The position numbers and the translations under genes were made by a program. Positions 4,175 through 31,315 of a stretch of DNA of 54,674 nucleotides are shown here, piece after piece. The notes beneath the pieces were generated by a model. That model did not search any database. It saw nothing but the letters and a program-made list of their open reading frames with translations, and was not told the DNA's origin. Positions within the stretch are counted from its first letter, which is position 1. The number at the start of each line of letters is the position of its first letter. Source of the stretch: Chitinophagaceae bacterium (GTDB lineage: Bacteria; Bacteroidota; Bacteroidia; Chitinophagales; Chitinophagaceae); contig CANGNA010000027.1 in assembly GCA_947455215.1 (NCBI GenBank), positions 1-54,674 on the forward strand, read 5' to 3'.

Positions 4175-5145
4175 AACCGGATATCATACCACAGGAAGAG
4201 TCGGCGCCGCTGGCAGGACTTATAGAGCAGGTACAGGAAAAAATACACCAAGTGATAGTTGGGCAGGACGACATGATAGAGCAACTGCTTGCCGGCCTGC
4301 TTGCCGACGGGCATATACTGATAGAGGGTGTGCCGGGTGTTGCCAAGACACTTACAGCCAAAATGCTGTCTAAGCTCATCAATACGCGTTTCTCCCGCAT
4401 ACAGTTCACGCCCGATCTGATGCCGAGCGATGTGCTGGGTACCAGTGTGCTGAACCAGGCAGCTGGCTCATTCCAATTCCGTGCCGGGCCGGTATTCAGC
4501 AACATAGTGCTGATAGATGAGATCAACCGTGCGCCTGCCAAAACACAGGCAGCCCTGTTCGAGGTGATGGAAGAGCGGCAGGTGACCATAGACGGTTTGA
4601 CGCACAAAATGCAGAACCCATTCATGGTTATAGCCACACAAAACCCCATAGAGCATGAAGGTACCTACCGCCTGCCAGAAGCACAGCTGGACAGGTTTAT
4701 GATGAAGATAACGGTGGGCTATCCCACGCTGGAAGAGGAGATAAAGATACTGGAGCGTCACGACGAAAGCCTGATGGCAGAAGTGCTGGCTAATATACAG
4801 CCAGTGATCACGCCGGAGGCATTGCAAAATGCACGCCAGGTAATACGCTGCATACATATAGAGCCTAAACTGGTAGCCTTTATAGCTAAGATAGTTTACG
4901 AAACGCGCAACGATAAAAGCATATTCCTTGGCGCATCGCCACGAGCCTCTATTGCCATGATGCAGATAGCTAAGGCATTTGCAGTATTGCGTGGCCGCAA
5001 CTTCGTGATACCGGAGGATATACTGGAAGCAGTAAACCCGGTGCTGCGTCATCGTATCAGCCTGACACCTGAGCGTGAGATGGAAGGTGCTACAACAGAT
5101 GATGTGCTGAAAGAATTGATAGCCAGGATGGAAATACCGAGATAA
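4162..5145 (+). CDS. MoxR-type AAA+ ATPase
   Basis: A 327-residue cytosolic AAA+ ATPase of the MoxR family, thought to act as a chaperone that matures or activates partner proteins containing VWA or DUF58 domains. Visible motifs are Walker A GVPGVAKT (56-63), Walker B LIDEINRAP (117-125; D119, E120), sensor 1 MVIATQNP, and arginine-rich sensor regions in the lid (GASPRASIAMMQIAKAFA). The length is normal for the family. It overlaps the DUF4350 gene by 13 bases; the partner DUF58 gene follows after a 162-base gap that holds a repeat element. Confidence 0.93.
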   Translation: MEGLEPDIIPQEESAPLAGLIEQVQEKIHQVIVGQDDMIEQLLAGLLADGHILIEGVPGVAKTLTAKMLSKLINTRFSRIQFTPDLMPSDVLGTSVLNQAAGSFQFRAGPVFSNIVLIDEINRAPAKTQAALFEVMEERQVTIDGLTHKMQNPFMVIATQNPIEHEGTYRLPEAQLDRFMMKITVGYPTLEEEIKILERHDESLMAEVLANIQPVITPEALQNARQVIRCIHIEPKLVAFIAKIVYETRNDKSIFLGASPRASIAMMQIAKAFAVLRGRNFVIPEDILEAVNPVLRHRISLTPEREMEGATTDDVLKELIARMEIPR

Positions 5146-5148
5146 ATA

Positions 5149-5167
5149 ATGACTCAATGGCTCAATA
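5149..5167 (+). repeat. GGCTCAAT-type intergenic repeat, copy 1
   Basis: ATGACTCAATGGCTCAATA begins three bases after the moxR stop. The same 19 bases recur exactly at 33624-33642, upstream of prmA, and related units occur near 35491-35515 and 52254-52262. Confidence 0.65.
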
Positions 5168-5185
5168 TTCTTGTTAACAGAAATT

Positions 5186-5272
5186 GCTCTGAAAGAGCAA
5201 AAGATAATAGCCCGGGGTGCAGCCCCGGGGTCTAAAGAATAAGCTGAATGAGCTCTGTAAGAGCGAAAGATA
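5186..5272 (+). repeat. REP-like palindromic element inside the moxR operon
   Basis: The element has three hairpins. Two near-identical units with stem GCTCTGWAAGAGC (5186-5198 and 5252-5264), each followed by RAAAGATA, flank a GC-rich hairpin of CCCGGGG (5211-5217) and CCCCGGG (5223-5229). The two outer units are in direct orientation and match at 19 of 21 positions. This layout resembles the repeated extragenic palindromes spread in many Bacteroidota genomes, possibly mobilised by a REP-associated Y1 transposase; none is encoded here. The central hairpin lacks a T-run, so it is not a classic terminator, but it may affect moxR/DUF58 transcript balance. Confidence 0.7.
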
Positions 5273-5307
5273 TTTAAAATACGTAGTTGTACAGAAACAA
5301 AAACGCA

Positions 5308-6648
5308 ATGCTGAAAAAATACATAGGCGATCTGCAGATAAGCACCCGGTGGTACGTGGTGCTGAGTGCCTGTGTAGTGTTGTTTTTTGTGTCGTTCTTC
5401 TTTTCTCTGCTCTACAGGCTGGTGTTTACGGCCACTATGCTGGTATTCTTTTTCACCGTTATAGATTACATCTTATTGTTTGTGGTAAAGGGGCGGCTGA
5501 CCGGCAGCAGGCAGATGATGCCGCGCTTCAGTATTGGCGATGATAATGAGGTGGAGATATTGCTGAACAACGAGTATCCTTACAAGATAACCGGTTATAT
5601 TATAGATGAATTGCCGGTGCAGTTCCAGGTGCGCGATTTTCATATGGATATCCATGTGGAGCTGCAGTCCAGGAGTAGGATCGCTTATACATTAAAGCCA
5701 CTGTCTCGTGGCGAATATGTTTTCGGAGAACTTATCTGCTATGCATCCTCGCCCATAGGATTACTACAGCGGCGGATAGTACTCGAAGAGGCGACAATGA
5801 TAAAAGTGTATCCGGCTTTTCAGCAATTAAAACGCTACCAGTTGCAATTAATGGCTACTAGTACCAACACAGCTACTGGTATAAAAAAAGTAAGGCGGCT
5901 TGGGCATAGTCTTGAATTTGAGAAGATAAAAGACTACGTGCCGGGAGATGATGTACGCACCATTAACTGGAAGGCTACTGCGCGGAGTAACAGCCTGATG
6001 GTAAACACGTTTACCGATGCCCGCCAGCAGCAGATATACTGCCTGATAGACAAAGGTCGGAACATGAAGATGCCCTTTGAAGGGATGACCCTGCTCGACT
6101 ATTCTATAAACGCCAGCCTGGCGCTGCTGAATATTGCATTGCTGAAACAGGATAAGGCGGGCGTTATCACTTTTTCTAACAAGGTGAATGATGTAGTAGC
6201 GGCCGACAGGAAGAATAACCAGCTCCACCATATACTGGAGGTGCTGTACAAGCAGCAAACTGATTTTAAGGAAAGCGACTACGAGGCCGTATGGGTAGCA
6301 TTACATAAGCGCATTACCCAGCGCAGTCTTATTTTGTTCTTCACTAATTTCGAGACGTATTCGTCATTAGAGCGGCAATTGCCATTCCTGAAAAAGATAG
6401 CGCAGCACCACCTGGTATGCGTGGTGTTTTTTGAAAATACGTTGTTGAAGGAGATACATGAGTCGAACCCGGATGATATAGAAGGTATTTATATTAAAAC
6501 TATTGCAGATCAGTTTGCGTACGAAAAGCGGCAGATAGTAAAGGTGCTGCGCCAGCATGGCATCCTCTCTATCCTCTCTACCCCCGAAAAACTGAGTCTG
6601 GATGTTATTAACAAATATCTTGAAATGAAAGCCAGGCAGATGGTATAG
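5308..6648 (+). CDS. DUF58 domain protein
   Basis: A 446-residue protein, last gene of the MoxR operon. Two hydrophobic helices lie in the first 55 residues, then an extended region with RGEYVFGELICYASSPIGL, and a DUF58/VWA-like C-terminal domain whose core SLEFEKIKDYVPGDDVRTINWKATAR is split below 20 residues here as SLEFEKIKDYVPGDDVRT and INWKATAR. A Rossmann-like stretch IYCLIDKGRNM follows, as in MIDAS-type domains. These proteins are membrane-linked partners of MoxR ATPases. The open frame extends to a TTG at 5287, but ATG 5308 (MLKKYIGDL) gives the usual N-terminus. The gap from moxR contains the REP-like element. Confidence 0.88.
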   Translation: MLKKYIGDLQISTRWYVVLSACVVLFFVSFFFSLLYRLVFTATMLVFFFTVIDYILLFVVKGRLTGSRQMMPRFSIGDDNEVEILLNNEYPYKITGYIIDELPVQFQVRDFHMDIHVELQSRSRIAYTLKPLSRGEYVFGELICYASSPIGLLQRRIVLEEATMIKVYPAFQQLKRYQLQLMATSTNTATGIKKVRRLGHSLEFEKIKDYVPGDDVRTINWKATARSNSLMVNTFTDARQQQIYCLIDKGRNMKMPFEGMTLLDYSINASLALLNIALLKQDKAGVITFSNKVNDVVAADRKNNQLHHILEVLYKQQTDFKESDYEAVWVALHKRITQRSLILFFTNFETYSSLERQLPFLKKIAQHHLVCVVFFENTLLKEIHESNPDDIEGIYIKTIADQFAYEKRQIVKVLRQHGILSILSTPEKLSLDVINKYLEMKARQMV

Positions 6649-6794: not shown

Positions 6795-7373
6795 GTGTAC
6801 AACGCCACAAATAGCGAACAGCAGTTACTGAAAGCACTGGCCAAAGGCGACAGGGTGGCTACCGAAACCATCTATAAACAGCAATATCCCATTATAAAAA
6901 GCTGGTTATTGAAGAATGGTAGTTCTGATGACGACGCGGCTGATATCTTCCAGGAATCGATGGTGGTTCTTTTTGGCAAAGTACAGAGTGCCGATTTTAC
7001 GCTCACTTGCGCCGTAGGTACGTACTTATTTTCCATAAGTAAAAATCTGTGGTTCAAGAGATTACAACAACAGCAACGTGAGCCCGGGCGTCTTTACGAC
7101 AATTCGGGCGACGATGAGGATGGTGGTATAGCGTATGAAGAGGACCTCAATATTCATCACGAAAGGGAGGCACACTTCAACCAGTTGAACAGTGCGCTCG
7201 ACCAGATAGGTGAACCATGCAGATCTTTATTGCAGGCTTTTTACCACAAGGACAAAAGCATGCAGGAAATAGCGGCAGATTTTGGGTATACCAACCCGGA
7301 GAATGCCAAGACTCAGAAGTATAAATGCCTGACGCGACTGAGGAAACTGTTTTACACGGTGCAGGCAAAATGA
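6795..7373 (+). CDS. ECF-type RNA polymerase sigma factor
   Basis: A 192-residue sigma-70 family protein of ECF size. Region 2 is visible as DDDAADIFQESMVVLFGKV and LFSISKNLWFKRLQQQQ (core binding and -10 recognition), and region 4 as MQEIAADFGYTNPENAKTQKYKCLTRLRKLF, a helix-turn-helix near the C-terminus. The start is GTG at 6795, which directly follows an in-frame TAA, so no longer form is possible. It lies 9 bases before a membrane protein with an anti-sigma-like N-terminus, so the two likely form a regulatory pair. The regulon cannot be read from this window. Confidence 0.9.
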   Translation: MYNATNSEQQLLKALAKGDRVATETIYKQQYPIIKSWLLKNGSSDDDAADIFQESMVVLFGKVQSADFTLTCAVGTYLFSISKNLWFKRLQQQQREPGRLYDNSGDDEDGGIAYEEDLNIHHEREAHFNQLNSALDQIGEPCRSLLQAFYHKDKSMQEIAADFGYTNPENAKTQKYKCLTRLRKLFYTVQAK

Positions 7374-7382
7374 GTACATCTT

Positions 7383-8465
7383 ATGAACACTAATAATGTT
7401 TGGGAATTAGCAGAAGCATACCTGGCGGGTACCCTTACCGCCGCCCAGGATGCAGAGCTAAGGAGCAGAAAGGAAACAGACGAAGTATTTGCTGCCGAAT
7501 TCAACGATAGTATCAATTTGATCAATTCCCTTCACGGTGCCGGAAAGCAGAAGCGTTTCCGCAATATGTTGCAGGATATACAACTGCAGCAGGCTAAGCC
7601 TAAGCGCATCATTAATTTTACTCCTGCATTCTGGCGTACAGCGGCAGTAGCTGCAACAGTAGCATTGGTAACGTCTCTTATCAATTACTCCATCATTAAC
7701 GGTTCCGCCAAGCGGAACAATGCAGACTATACTGTTATCAGCAAGCAGGTAAACGCAATAGCCAACAACCAGAAGAACCTGAACAAAATAGTACAGGACT
7801 CGCTGCTGAATAAAAAGCCTGTAGCACCACCATCAGACGTGCGTCGCACAGGTACTGGTGTAGCCCTCACCAACGATGGCTACTTTGTTACTGCTTACCA
7901 CGTGATCAATGATGGTAATGGTGATGGTGATTCTGTATACATACAGGCTAACGATGGCGCCTATTACAAGGCGTTCATGGTGAACTACAACGTTGAGTCT
8001 GACCTGGCTATATTAAAGGTAGAAAAGAAGAATTTCCAGTTCAACAAGGGTGAGGTGCCATATACATTTGTGGGTACAAAAGCTGCACTTGGTGCGCAGG
8101 TATACACGGTAGGTTATCCTAAGGATGATGTAGTATACAGCGAAGGCTATGTAAGTTCACGCAATGGTTACCATGGCAATAAGAACCAGTATACACTGGA
8201 ACTGCCTGCGGGCCATGGCCAGAGCGGTTCTCCGCTGGTAGACGCTCATGGTAATATACTTGGTATCCTTACCGCAATTGGCAAGGCCGGTGAATCTAAT
8301 ACCTATGCAGTTGGTTCGGAAGAGGTGATAGACCTGATAGACAACATGCCTGCCGGTAAGAAGATAAAATTGCCTAAGGGCAATAAGTTGGGCCGCCTGG
8401 GCCGCGAGGACCAGATATCGCGCATGGAGAATTACACCTTCTCCGTTAAAGTATATAAGAAGTAA
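7383..8465 (+). CDS. Membrane-anchored trypsin-like protease with anti-sigma-like N-terminus
   Basis: A 360-residue protein. Residues 1-75 are cytosolic and look like a short anti-sigma/zinc-finger-like sequence (WELAEAYLAGTLTAAQDAEL), though the Cys/His zinc ligands are absent. A membrane helix lies at about 84-104. Residues 155-320 form a trypsin-like domain with a complete triad: His173 in VTAYHVIND, Asp207 in ESDLAILKV and Ser281 in GHGQSGSPLV. The C-terminal 40 residues are basic. It is 9 bases downstream of an ECF sigma factor, so it probably tethers that sigma factor and senses or cleaves something in the periplasm. A housekeeping HtrA role is less likely because no PDZ domain is present. 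Confidence 0.8.
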   Translation: MNTNNVWELAEAYLAGTLTAAQDAELRSRKETDEVFAAEFNDSINLINSLHGAGKQKRFRNMLQDIQLQQAKPKRIINFTPAFWRTAAVAATVALVTSLINYSIINGSAKRNNADYTVISKQVNAIANNQKNLNKIVQDSLLNKKPVAPPSDVRRTGTGVALTNDGYFVTAYHVINDGNGDGDSVYIQANDGAYYKAFMVNYNVESDLAILKVEKKNFQFNKGEVPYTFVGTKAALGAQVYTVGYPKDDVVYSEGYVSSRNGYHGNKNQYTLELPAGHGQSGSPLVDAHGNILGILTAIGKAGESNTYAVGSEEVIDLIDNMPAGKKIKLPKGNKLGRLGREDQISRMENYTFSVKVYKK

Positions 8466-29929: not shown

Positions 29930-30562
29930 ATGAAGCGCCCACAATCCATACATATCAACATCCCCAATCCCTGTTCTCAAAACTGGGATGAGATGACGCC
30001 ATCCGGCAATGGCCGTCACTGCACGCATTGCCGTACAACGGTTATTGACTTCACTACGTGGACTGATGCAGAACTGTACAAGTTTTTCACAAAAGGTAAT
30101 GGGAATGTGTGCGGAAGATATCTCTCTACTCAATTGAACCGCCGGATAAATATACCGCCACAACCACATAGCAGGTTGTACAGAATGATAGTGGCAATGG
30201 GATTGACGCTACTATTTACAAGTGCCAAAGGGACATACGGCCAAATAAAATCACCCCTTGTGAACGGGAAAATTAAGGGACACATAGTAAGCGTTCGCGA
30301 TGAGCCTAAGGACAAATATGCCATTACTGTAATGTGTGGCGATAAGGTTAAGGCGCAAGTATATGCAGACAAAAATGGAGATTTTGAAATTGCAGCTGTA
30401 GATACAGGCTACTATATGGTCGAAGTATCGAATGAAGTTTGGGATATGTCTGCTATAGTAGGCGTAAGAGTAGCACCTGGTGAAACAGCTATCGTGACGG
30501 TCGCACCGGAAGAGATTTTTATGGGAAAGATGATAGGTGGCGGACCTGCTAAAAACAAATAG
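29930..30562 (+). CDS. Four-cysteine membrane protein, paralogue A
   Basis: A 210-residue protein of unknown function. Residues 1-75 are a conserved cytosolic module with IPNPCSQNW, MTPSGNGRHCTHC, VIDFTTWTDAEL and VCGRY; Cys15, Cys31, Cys34 and Cys61 suggest a bound metal or a structural zinc site. A membrane helix follows at about 84-97. The C-terminal 110 residues look like a beta-sandwich (KAQVYADKNGDFEIAAVDTGYYMVEV, under 20 residues per motif: YADKNGDFEIAAVDTGYY), as in carboxypeptidase-regulatory-like domains. The N-terminal module is one I recall from many Bacteroidota proteins, without a known role. The adjacent paralogue B starts 6 bases later. Confidence 0.75.
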   Translation: MKRPQSIHINIPNPCSQNWDEMTPSGNGRHCTHCRTTVIDFTTWTDAELYKFFTKGNGNVCGRYLSTQLNRRINIPPQPHSRLYRMIVAMGLTLLFTSAKGTYGQIKSPLVNGKIKGHIVSVRDEPKDKYAITVMCGDKVKAQVYADKNGDFEIAAVDTGYYMVEVSNEVWDMSAIVGVRVAPGETAIVTVAPEEIFMGKMIGGGPAKNK

Positions 30563-30568
30563 ACATAA

Positions 30569-31315
30569 ATGAAGTGCCCACAATCCATACAGATCAACAT
30601 CCCCAATCCCTGTTCTCAAAACTGGGATAAGATGACGCCATCCGGCAATGGCCGTCATTGTGCACATTGCAGCACAGCGGTTATTGACTTCACTACGTGG
30701 ACGGATGCTGAGTTGTATCAATTTTTTGCGAAGGGCAATGAGCATGTATGTGGCAGGTATCTTTCTACTCAATTGAACCGCCCCATCAATATTCTACCTC
30801 AACCGCATAGCAGATTATATAGAATGGTAGTGGCAATGGGATTGACGCTGATATTTGGCGGTGTGGTTGAGGCTAAGGTGCAGAGTAAGGTGTTGGTGCA
30901 GCAGAACGATACTGTTAAAAAGGCTGTACACACAGAAGACTTAAAGACGGGTGTGATGGGAACAGTGGCAGATAGCGCTAAGGAGCCAGTAGTTAATGCG
31001 CTGATAATAGCTTGCTTGAATGGTCGTGAAATGGGTAGCACTATTACTAATATTGATGGTCAATACTCAATGCAGCTTACGCCCGGGCAATATGAGTTGA
31101 CCATTAGTTACTTGGGATTAGCAACACAAATAAAAAGTGTGGTTGTTGCCGATCATATGGTGTCGGCAGACTTCACTATGGATAGAGACAAAAATGCCAT
31201 TGTTCTTGGAGGGCCGATTGTGCGAATAGTAGATAGAAGAACATTTAATCGTAACCTTAGGGCAATAAAAAGAGGCGAAAGAAAGGCGCGAAGGAGAATG
31301 TCTGATGACGAATAG
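30569..31315 (+). CDS. Four-cysteine membrane protein, paralogue B
   Basis: A 248-residue tandem paralogue of the gene before it. The first 95 residues differ at only about 13 positions and keep Cys15, Cys31, Cys34 and Cys61 at identical numbers, plus an extra Cys3. After the membrane helix (about 84-99) the sequence is different: residues 128-205 form a carboxypeptidase-regulatory-like beta-sandwich (TGVMGTVADSAKEPVVNAL, TNIDGQYSMQLTPGQYELTI), and the tail is strongly basic (RAIKRGERKARRRM). The 6-base gap shows an operon. It ends 2 bases before the convergent methyltransferase gene. Function unknown; a paired membrane sensor is only a guess. Confidence 0.75.
   Translation: MKCPQSIQINIPNPCSQNWDKMTPSGNGRHCAHCSTAVIDFTTWTDAELYQFFAKGNEHVCGRYLSTQLNRPINILPQPHSRLYRMVVAMGLTLIFGGVVEAKVQSKVLVQQNDTVKKAVHTEDLKTGVMGTVADSAKEPVVNALIIACLNGREMGSTITNIDGQYSMQLTPGQYELTISYLGLATQIKSVVVADHMVSADFTMDRDKNAIVLGGPIVRIVDRRTFNRNLRAIKRGERKARRRMSDDE

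Follow-up and report, generated by a model that had tools for sequence, protein, structure and literature searches.

What is encoded by two adjacent genes that begin almost identically and end differently? The question was raised by a tandem pair in a 54,674-nt stretch of a Chitinophagaceae bacterium genome (contig CANGNA010000027.1), hereafter referred to as the window. A first-pass annotation had described the pair as membrane proteins that share a four-cysteine N-terminal module, here called the head, and carry unrelated outer domains, here called the tails, as might be expected of a receptor family or of a domain-shuffling duplication. The reading favored here, judged to have about an even chance of being right, is that each gene encodes the precursor of a small beta-sandwich protein destined for export, with an N-terminal cassette common to both, in which the head would act as a cytosolic, probably metal-bound pilot before or during Sec export.

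A tandem gene pair with a repeated N-terminal cassette

The two ORFs were confirmed to lie on the same strand with an intergenic gap of 6 bases, and C15, C31, C34, and C61 were found at matching positions in both proteins (Table 1). A single direct-repeat family was identified, composed of two 288-nt copies with 85% identity (29930-30217 and 30569-30856) that correspond to the first 96 codons of both genes, in agreement with the near-identical nucleotide starts noticed earlier. These codons included 23 synonymous and 14 non-synonymous differences; the reported likeness of the first 95 residues stood, with the number of differences corrected from about 13 to 14. Over head codons 1-79, the pair had a dS of 0.81 and a dN of 0.067 (dN/dS 0.083, Nei-Gojobori): strong purifying selection has acted on the two heads since their divergence. 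Given this ratio, their similarity is attributed to selection at the protein level together with shared ancestry. The neighboring genes in the window were purC-like, spermidine synthase-like, and plsY-like when judged by eye, and they suggested no link to the head genes.

Table 1. Features of the tandem gene pair in the window (a slash within a motif marks the predicted cut)
Feature	Positions	Strand	Remarks
Gene 1 (P0001, 210 aa)	29930..30562	+	Cys4 head, signal peptide, and CarboxypepD_reg-like tail (predicted)
Gene 1 head, residues 1-79	29930..30166	+	Without Pfam or NCBIfam match
Gene 1 head Cys codons	C15 29972-29974, C31 30020-30022, C34 30029-30031, C61 30110-30112	+	
Gene 1 signal-peptide hydrophobic core, residues 86-96	30185..30217	+	MIVAMGLTLLF
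Gene 1 predicted SPase I site TYG/Q, after residue 104	30241/30242		Motif reading, not SignalP
Gene 1 predicted mature exported tail	30242..30559	+	PF13620 at residues 115-192, below gathering cut-off
Gene 2 (P0002, 248 aa)	30569..31315	+	Cys4 head, signal peptide, CarboxypepD_reg tail, and basic C-terminal helix (predicted)
Gene 2 head, residues 1-79	30569..30805	+	85% identity to gene 1 head
Gene 2 hydrophobic core, residues 86-96	30824..30856	+	MVVAMGLTLIF
Gene 2 candidate SPase I site VEA/K, after residue 102	30874/30875		Fails the Gln motif
Gene 2 predicted mature tail	30875..31312	+	PF13620 (E 4.6e-12) over residues 129-204; model with a transthyretin-like fold

Distribution and conservation of the head domain

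For the head sequences P0003 and P0004, neither Pfam-A nor NCBIfam gave a match at E <= 10, which bears out, in the libraries searched, the earlier view that the module was undescribed. Similarly, P0003 had no match among PDB sequences (phmmer), and a search of one open-access literature library found no description of such a four-cysteine head. As far as this literature was searched, the head is a new domain family, and head and signal together are an undescribed kind of extended signal peptide.

Five head copies with E-values below 1e-11 were found in the genome itself; two are those of the window, and the other three are clustered at C20:54691-57019. Heads were present in 24 of the 60 sampled genomes of the same family; one of the 24 (G018) had a weak match containing stops. 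When Bacteroidota as a whole was sampled (profile A1), relatives of the module were found in 54 of 395 genomes, counting the window's own. Among 98 places with a head, 26 had a second copy at most 2.5 kb away, and these were distributed over 10 of the 54 genomes. Named relatives included those in three Pedobacter genomes, in Aureibacter plasmids, and in Hymenobacter plasmids. Additionally, 14 copies were found in the 4.3-Mb genome of a MAG labelled Cyanobacteria bacterium TGS_CYA1 (G445; loci L041 and L112-L119), and heads occurred in two of 146 sampled genomes of that MAG's phylum, the MAG included. Eight of nine heads read in G445 had, ahead of the signal peptide, a DGTI-type stretch with an additional Cys-Pro at its end. 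A free-standing head variant, with neither signal peptide nor tail, was encoded in the Calothrix plasmid AP018211 (L122, 4998-5270). No match to P0003 was found in phages at E <= 0.1, and a single scan of viral contigs with the L015 head found no relative.

Gene annotation can clip the head. At the Aureibacter locus L121, one annotated start (6124) falls 41 codons into a head whose first base is 6001; in three other annotated Aureibacter genes, the head is part of the gene.

A set of 99 members was derived from 109 head-bearing ORFs by requiring a length of at least 110 aa and removing redundant copies. This excluded the ORFs of L012, L045, L064, and L122, a cut ORF of L071, and a broken ORF of L094, all shorter than 110 aa, as well as four truncated duplicates; L030 (in G018, E 4.6e-4, two internal stops) and a hit labelled C15 (E 0.23) were also left out. 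Most members belonged to the family of the window or to a single genus group (g70) within its class, and the counts given here are hence not counts of independent events.

Conservation of the cysteines in homologues, on which the original proposal depended, holds: all four were kept in 98 of the 99 members (C15, C31, and C34 in 98, C61 in 99), and the sole exception was a frameshifted head (L094_+5000). The spacing between C15 and C31 was exactly 15 residues in all 98 members showing the pattern, and the gap between C34 and C61 ranged from 25 to 30. Apparent frameshifts were seen in the head of one L094 member (5001-5696), a locus that also holds an intact member, and in the tail of an L063 member (1504 onward).

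Predicted fold and putative metal site of the head

The AF2 model of the head, built with eight sequences, was of moderate confidence (pLDDT 69.9, pTM 0.52). It included strands at residues 6-8, 23-25, 28-31, and 36-40, a helix at 46-54, and further strands at 61-63 and 72-74. In this model, C31 and C34 would lie between two strands, as in zinc knuckles. With its four conserved cysteines, the predicted site could plausibly bind Zn or Fe-S. Against PDB folds, the best Foldseek match of the model had an E-value of 4.7.

Several candidate relatives of the head were rejected. The best match in the profile search was the tubulin polymerization-promoting protein (E 0.042), which is not taken as evidence of kinship; a pairwise hhalign comparison with the printed fragment of that protein gave a probability of 81%, but it was post hoc and the first cysteine was missing. 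In a Pfam scan of 32 heads at E <= 10, where the HMMER filters drop most weak matches, 23 families including several zinc fingers were each matched by one head, all with E > 0.01. The best NCBIfam match, a triheme cytochrome, was found for four of the 32 heads (best E 0.0019) and was read as a chance CxxC similarity. The zinc anti-sigma domain (ZAS) has the motif H-x3-C-x2-C. An identity with ZAS was dismissed, as the window heads have Asn and not His at residue 27 and no anti-sigma Pfam family was matched.

The helix after the head as a predicted signal peptide

The helix that follows the head, called a membrane helix in the first-pass annotation, more probably forms the hydrophobic core of a signal peptide that can be cleaved, and the hallmarks of such a peptide extend through the family. 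With fixed motifs, an SPase I motif with Gln after the cut followed the core in 53 of the 99 members and a lipobox in 27, with either one present in 78. Across 2000 shuffles of the same sequence windows, the mean was 18.5 and the maximum 32. As controls, 22 multi-pass proteins had the same motifs at 12 of their 148 helices, and the motifs were present in 36 of 54 proteins whose only hydrophobic stretch was N-terminal, both sets being drawn from crude gene calls around the loci. Stricter motifs retained 32 members with [AV]xAQ and 25 with a lipobox. While 21 of 99 failed the fixed motifs, several of these nearly fitted (NSA/Q, SSSC). Gene 1 had an SPase I-Gln motif (TYG/Q), and gene 2 was among the misses. 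In the MAG labelled Cyanobacteria, six of the nine included members carried SPase I-Gln or lipobox motifs. A Gln directly after the cut is described as the Q-rule of Bacteroidetes in PMC5837995 and PMC10653852.

The stretch before the hydrophobic core had a median length of 85 residues (74-105). The mean net charge was +2.3 in the 15 residues before the core and +1.0 after it, with the former greater in 62 of 99 members, equal in 22, and less in 15. This bias leans towards a head on the inner side. A cytosolic head, as originally supposed, is thus the predicted arrangement from the charge bias and the cleavage motif beyond the helix. At most one strong hydrophobic segment was found in 98 of the 99 members, and within the first 45 residues no hydrophobic 19-mer capable of exporting the head was present in any of the 99. 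An exported head, which would have spoken against the original proposal, is therefore rejected.

Head-less paralogues and split ORFs

Downstream of the head gene L080.5, the gene L080.6 encodes a protein that is without approximately 65 head residues and retains the signal peptide, the lipobox, and the tail. Its sequence starts MKMKHKIT-ISNRVLYSQ...TTLFSC, and its residues 6-227 aligned to residues 74-296 of L080.5 with 37% identity (blastp, E 5.7e-45). Further apparent head-less cases were L081.3, L072.3, and L076.3, with weaker alignments to their neighbors. As the head-less paralogue keeps both signal and tail, the head is a module that can be removed from an otherwise ordinary signal peptide.

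In three genomes (L012 from 1498 onward, L045 from 1492 onward, and L064 from 1492 onward), a single in-frame stop was observed where the head meets the signal peptide, beyond which signal peptide and tail continue in frame; the L064 head lacks C61. These stops may represent decay, sequence errors, or separately translated heads. Together with the solitary head of L122, they would be expected if the head were an independent cytosolic enzyme or binding domain fused to an exported partner, such that signal peptidase yields two products from each gene. That explanation is considered improbable: the three stops may be decay or error, one of the heads has lost C61, and just six of the 109 head-bearing ORFs were shorter than 110 aa.

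Tails diverge beside conserved heads

The tails of the window pair share 19% identity, and no match between them was found by blastp at E <= 1 within a set of 14 tails. Nevertheless, both matched PF13620 (CarboxypepD_reg), with an E-value of 4.6e-12 and 46.6 bits for gene 2 (cut-off 32.3) and an E-value of 2e-6 and 28.5 bits, below the cut-off, for gene 1. Hence the tails are diverged, but the earlier view that they are unrelated is not borne out. Gene 2 scored above and gene 1 below the cut-offs of both PF13620 and PF13715. For the model of the gene 2 tail, which has a transthyretin-like fold, the best matches were carboxypeptidase regulatory domains, and the N-terminal extension (NTE) of SusC BT3090 (9hfj) ranked eighth (E 4e-6, TM-score by target 0.78).

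Across the 99 members, the overlapping families CarbopepD_reg_2 and CarboxypepD_reg were found in 50 and 47 tails, respectively, at E <= 0.01. Other families at this threshold included TonB_C (16), a T9SS sorting tail (14), Plug (3), and an alpha/beta hydrolase (1). The T9SS sorting domain (PF18962/TIGR04183) found in these 14 members was absent from the window proteins. In the MAG labelled Cyanobacteria, seven of nine members had no Pfam match.

Among 109 pairs with heads at least 60% identical, head identity exceeded tail identity in 106. The tails were under 30% identical in 29 of these head-conserved pairs, including the window pair (85 and 19). The idea of a domain-shuffling duplication is hence partly right: the cassette of head and signal evolves slowly, while the tails diverge. 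A non-functional relic carried along by duplication is strongly disfavored and regarded as very improbable. Head-less paralogues persist and a frameshifted head exists, as a relic would allow, but the low dN/dS of the window pair, the better conservation of heads over tails, and the retention of the four cysteines all argue against it.

The pattern of diverged tails beside near-identical heads would also suit a stable single-pass membrane receptor, in which a conserved inner metal head is combined with swapped outer sensor domains, and so would the likely N-in/C-out topology with at most one strong hydrophobic segment. Such a receptor is nonetheless quite unlikely. The cleavage motifs occur at the frequency seen for signal peptides and far above that of multi-pass helices, lipobox versions exist, and a head-less version has an ordinary signal peptide. 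T9SS sorting tails should, in addition, need release from the inner membrane. The proposed receptor family of membrane proteins is not retained in view of these motifs, the head-less paralogue, and tails that are common exported domains. Since head and tail are expected to be cut apart, a receptor-like coupling between them is unlikely.

A proposed pilot for export and its nearest analogues

Under the favored reading as export precursors, the cassette would consist of the four-cysteine domain of approximately 80 residues followed by a cleavable Sec signal peptide. The head would fold around a metal, most likely Zn bound by C15, C31, C34, and C61, and remain in the cytosol. The signal peptide would insert as a loop and be cut by signal peptidase, and the tail would proceed to the periplasm, the outer membrane, or the surface. 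While the precursor is uncut, the head may serve as a pilot or a brake that delays or directs Sec export, a guess in line with what was proposed for the unrelated extended signal peptide region ESPR. After the cut, what remains of the signal peptide would carry the head as a tail, for removal. A more specific form of this proposal is put forward tentatively and is thought rather unlikely: the metal or redox state of the folded Cys4 head would act as a cytosolic checkpoint that decides the timing or manner of export of the attached protein, with the module reused in Bacteroidota, and in some bacteria outside it, on tails of the SusC-NTE-like, TonB_C, T9SS, and lipoprotein kinds. Several observations speak against the pilot reading: the 21 members that miss the cleavage motifs, gene 2 among them, a charge that is not higher before the core in 37 of 99 members, the lack of a neighbor that recurs throughout, and the moderate confidence of the head model. 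The absence of heads from most sampled genomes of the phylum (341 of 395 negative) is as compatible with a specific function as with an export aid.

Signal peptides are commonly regarded as short, disposable tags. If many of them are preceded by a selected cysteine domain of approximately 80 residues, combined with two types of signal peptidase site and many tails, this would imply that a step at or ahead of export has gone unrecognised. The domain would also bring proteins annotated as 'carboxypeptidase-like regulatory domain-containing protein' or 'energy transducer TonB' (Aureibacter) into one testable family.

The YSIRK/GxxS signal is a short motif without a cysteine domain, and it belongs to another phylum than the head proteins. 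It resembles the head in being attached to signal peptides, those of Gram-positive surface proteins, with a role before translocation (PMC12004944). A closer likeness is found in ESPR (PF13018) of type V secretion, which is also a conserved N-terminal extension before an otherwise normal Sec signal peptide. According to the account in PMC8151025, targeting itself can usually proceed without this extension, for which a slowing of export was proposed. In contrast to the approximately 25 residues of ESPR, the head is approximately 80 residues long, has four conserved cysteines, and is predicted to adopt a beta/alpha fold, and it is found on small exported proteins mainly of Bacteroidota, whereas ESPR is found on autotransporters and other type V proteins. 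PF13018 was not among the 23 Pfam families matched by the 32 heads at E <= 10. ESPR is the nearest working analogue of the head and not a relative.

A further comparison concerns the SusC NTE (PF13715), since the model of the gene 2 tail matched the BT3090 NTE and CarboxypepD_reg domains. Whereas the NTE is fused to a TonB-dependent barrel, the window domain is free-standing, and a Cys4 head would precede it in export. Deletion of the NTE in another SusC led to no detectable growth on levan, and the passage of PMC7782687 that reports this describes the function of the NTE as unknown.

Genomic neighborhood and an ECF sigma lineage

Among 49 loci examined, no neighbor recurred throughout that would name a partner of the head. 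In the g70 group, heads were located between dxs-like and tadA-like genes (by eye) at several loci. A head-less gene, from a BLAST cluster that includes TonB_C proteins, directly adjoined a head in seven of the 49 loci, one of which was the C20 cluster described above.

In at least 10 genomes of the window's family, with many flanks covering only 1.5 kb, a related ECF sigma gene was found near a head gene (L010, L012, L015/L106, L018, L019, L020, L021, L029, L064, and L107). These genomes are among the 26 in the family with any head match. The sigma gene was directly divergent from the head gene in eight cases and separated from it by one gene in two. Relatives of a membrane protein that looks anti-sigma-like by eye accompanied the sigma gene in all 10 genomes. 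Five such proteins were scanned, and they matched CarboxypepD_reg and/or TonB families, some below cut-off, and no anti-sigma Pfam family. The C-terminal domains of the sigma-adjacent membrane proteins at L104, L106-L108, and L110 were of the same kinds as the tails of head proteins. As a xerD-like gene (by eye) was also nearby at six of the sigma loci, the sigma link looks like a single syntenic lineage, and it was not found at the other loci searched.

Sigma and possible anti-sigma neighbors in one lineage would suit a regulatory role better. In such a role, cleavage by signal peptidase at site 1 and by a site-2 protease would free the cytosolic head, which would then report the state of export or of the envelope, either as in RsiV and RsiP or as a functional signal peptide. 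This is the main rival of the pilot reading, though it is considered rather unlikely. According to PMC8844934, the cytosolic part of RsiV and RsiP is released after a first cut by signal peptidase: SPase I is a proven site-1 protease for RsiP, and lysozyme-bound RsiV is cut by SPase. RseP is described as clearing remnant signal peptides after their detachment (PMC10470546). The position of the ECF sigma gene beside the head gene in 10 family genomes, followed by the anti-sigma-like membrane protein, agrees with such a role. However, the sigma factor seems to have this protein as a partner of its own, though one without an anti-sigma Pfam match, the apparently single lineage was not matched elsewhere, and a head-less paralogue exists. 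The heads also differ from RsiV and RsiP in having canonical or lipobox cleavage sites and exported, lipoprotein, or T9SS tails, in the lack of a general sigma partner, and in the absence of any anti-sigma family among their Pfam matches. Specifically, 32 of 99 sites fit [AV]xAQ and others are lipoboxes, whereas RsiP uses VQS, and a change of VQS to VQA is reported to make its degradation constitutive (PMC8844934).

In the region 6795-8465, the window itself also included a sigma-like gene (a weak tblastn hit at 7140-7286) with a second gene after it. Judged by eye, the product of this second gene combines an anti-sigma-like start with one helix and a trypsin-like protease domain.
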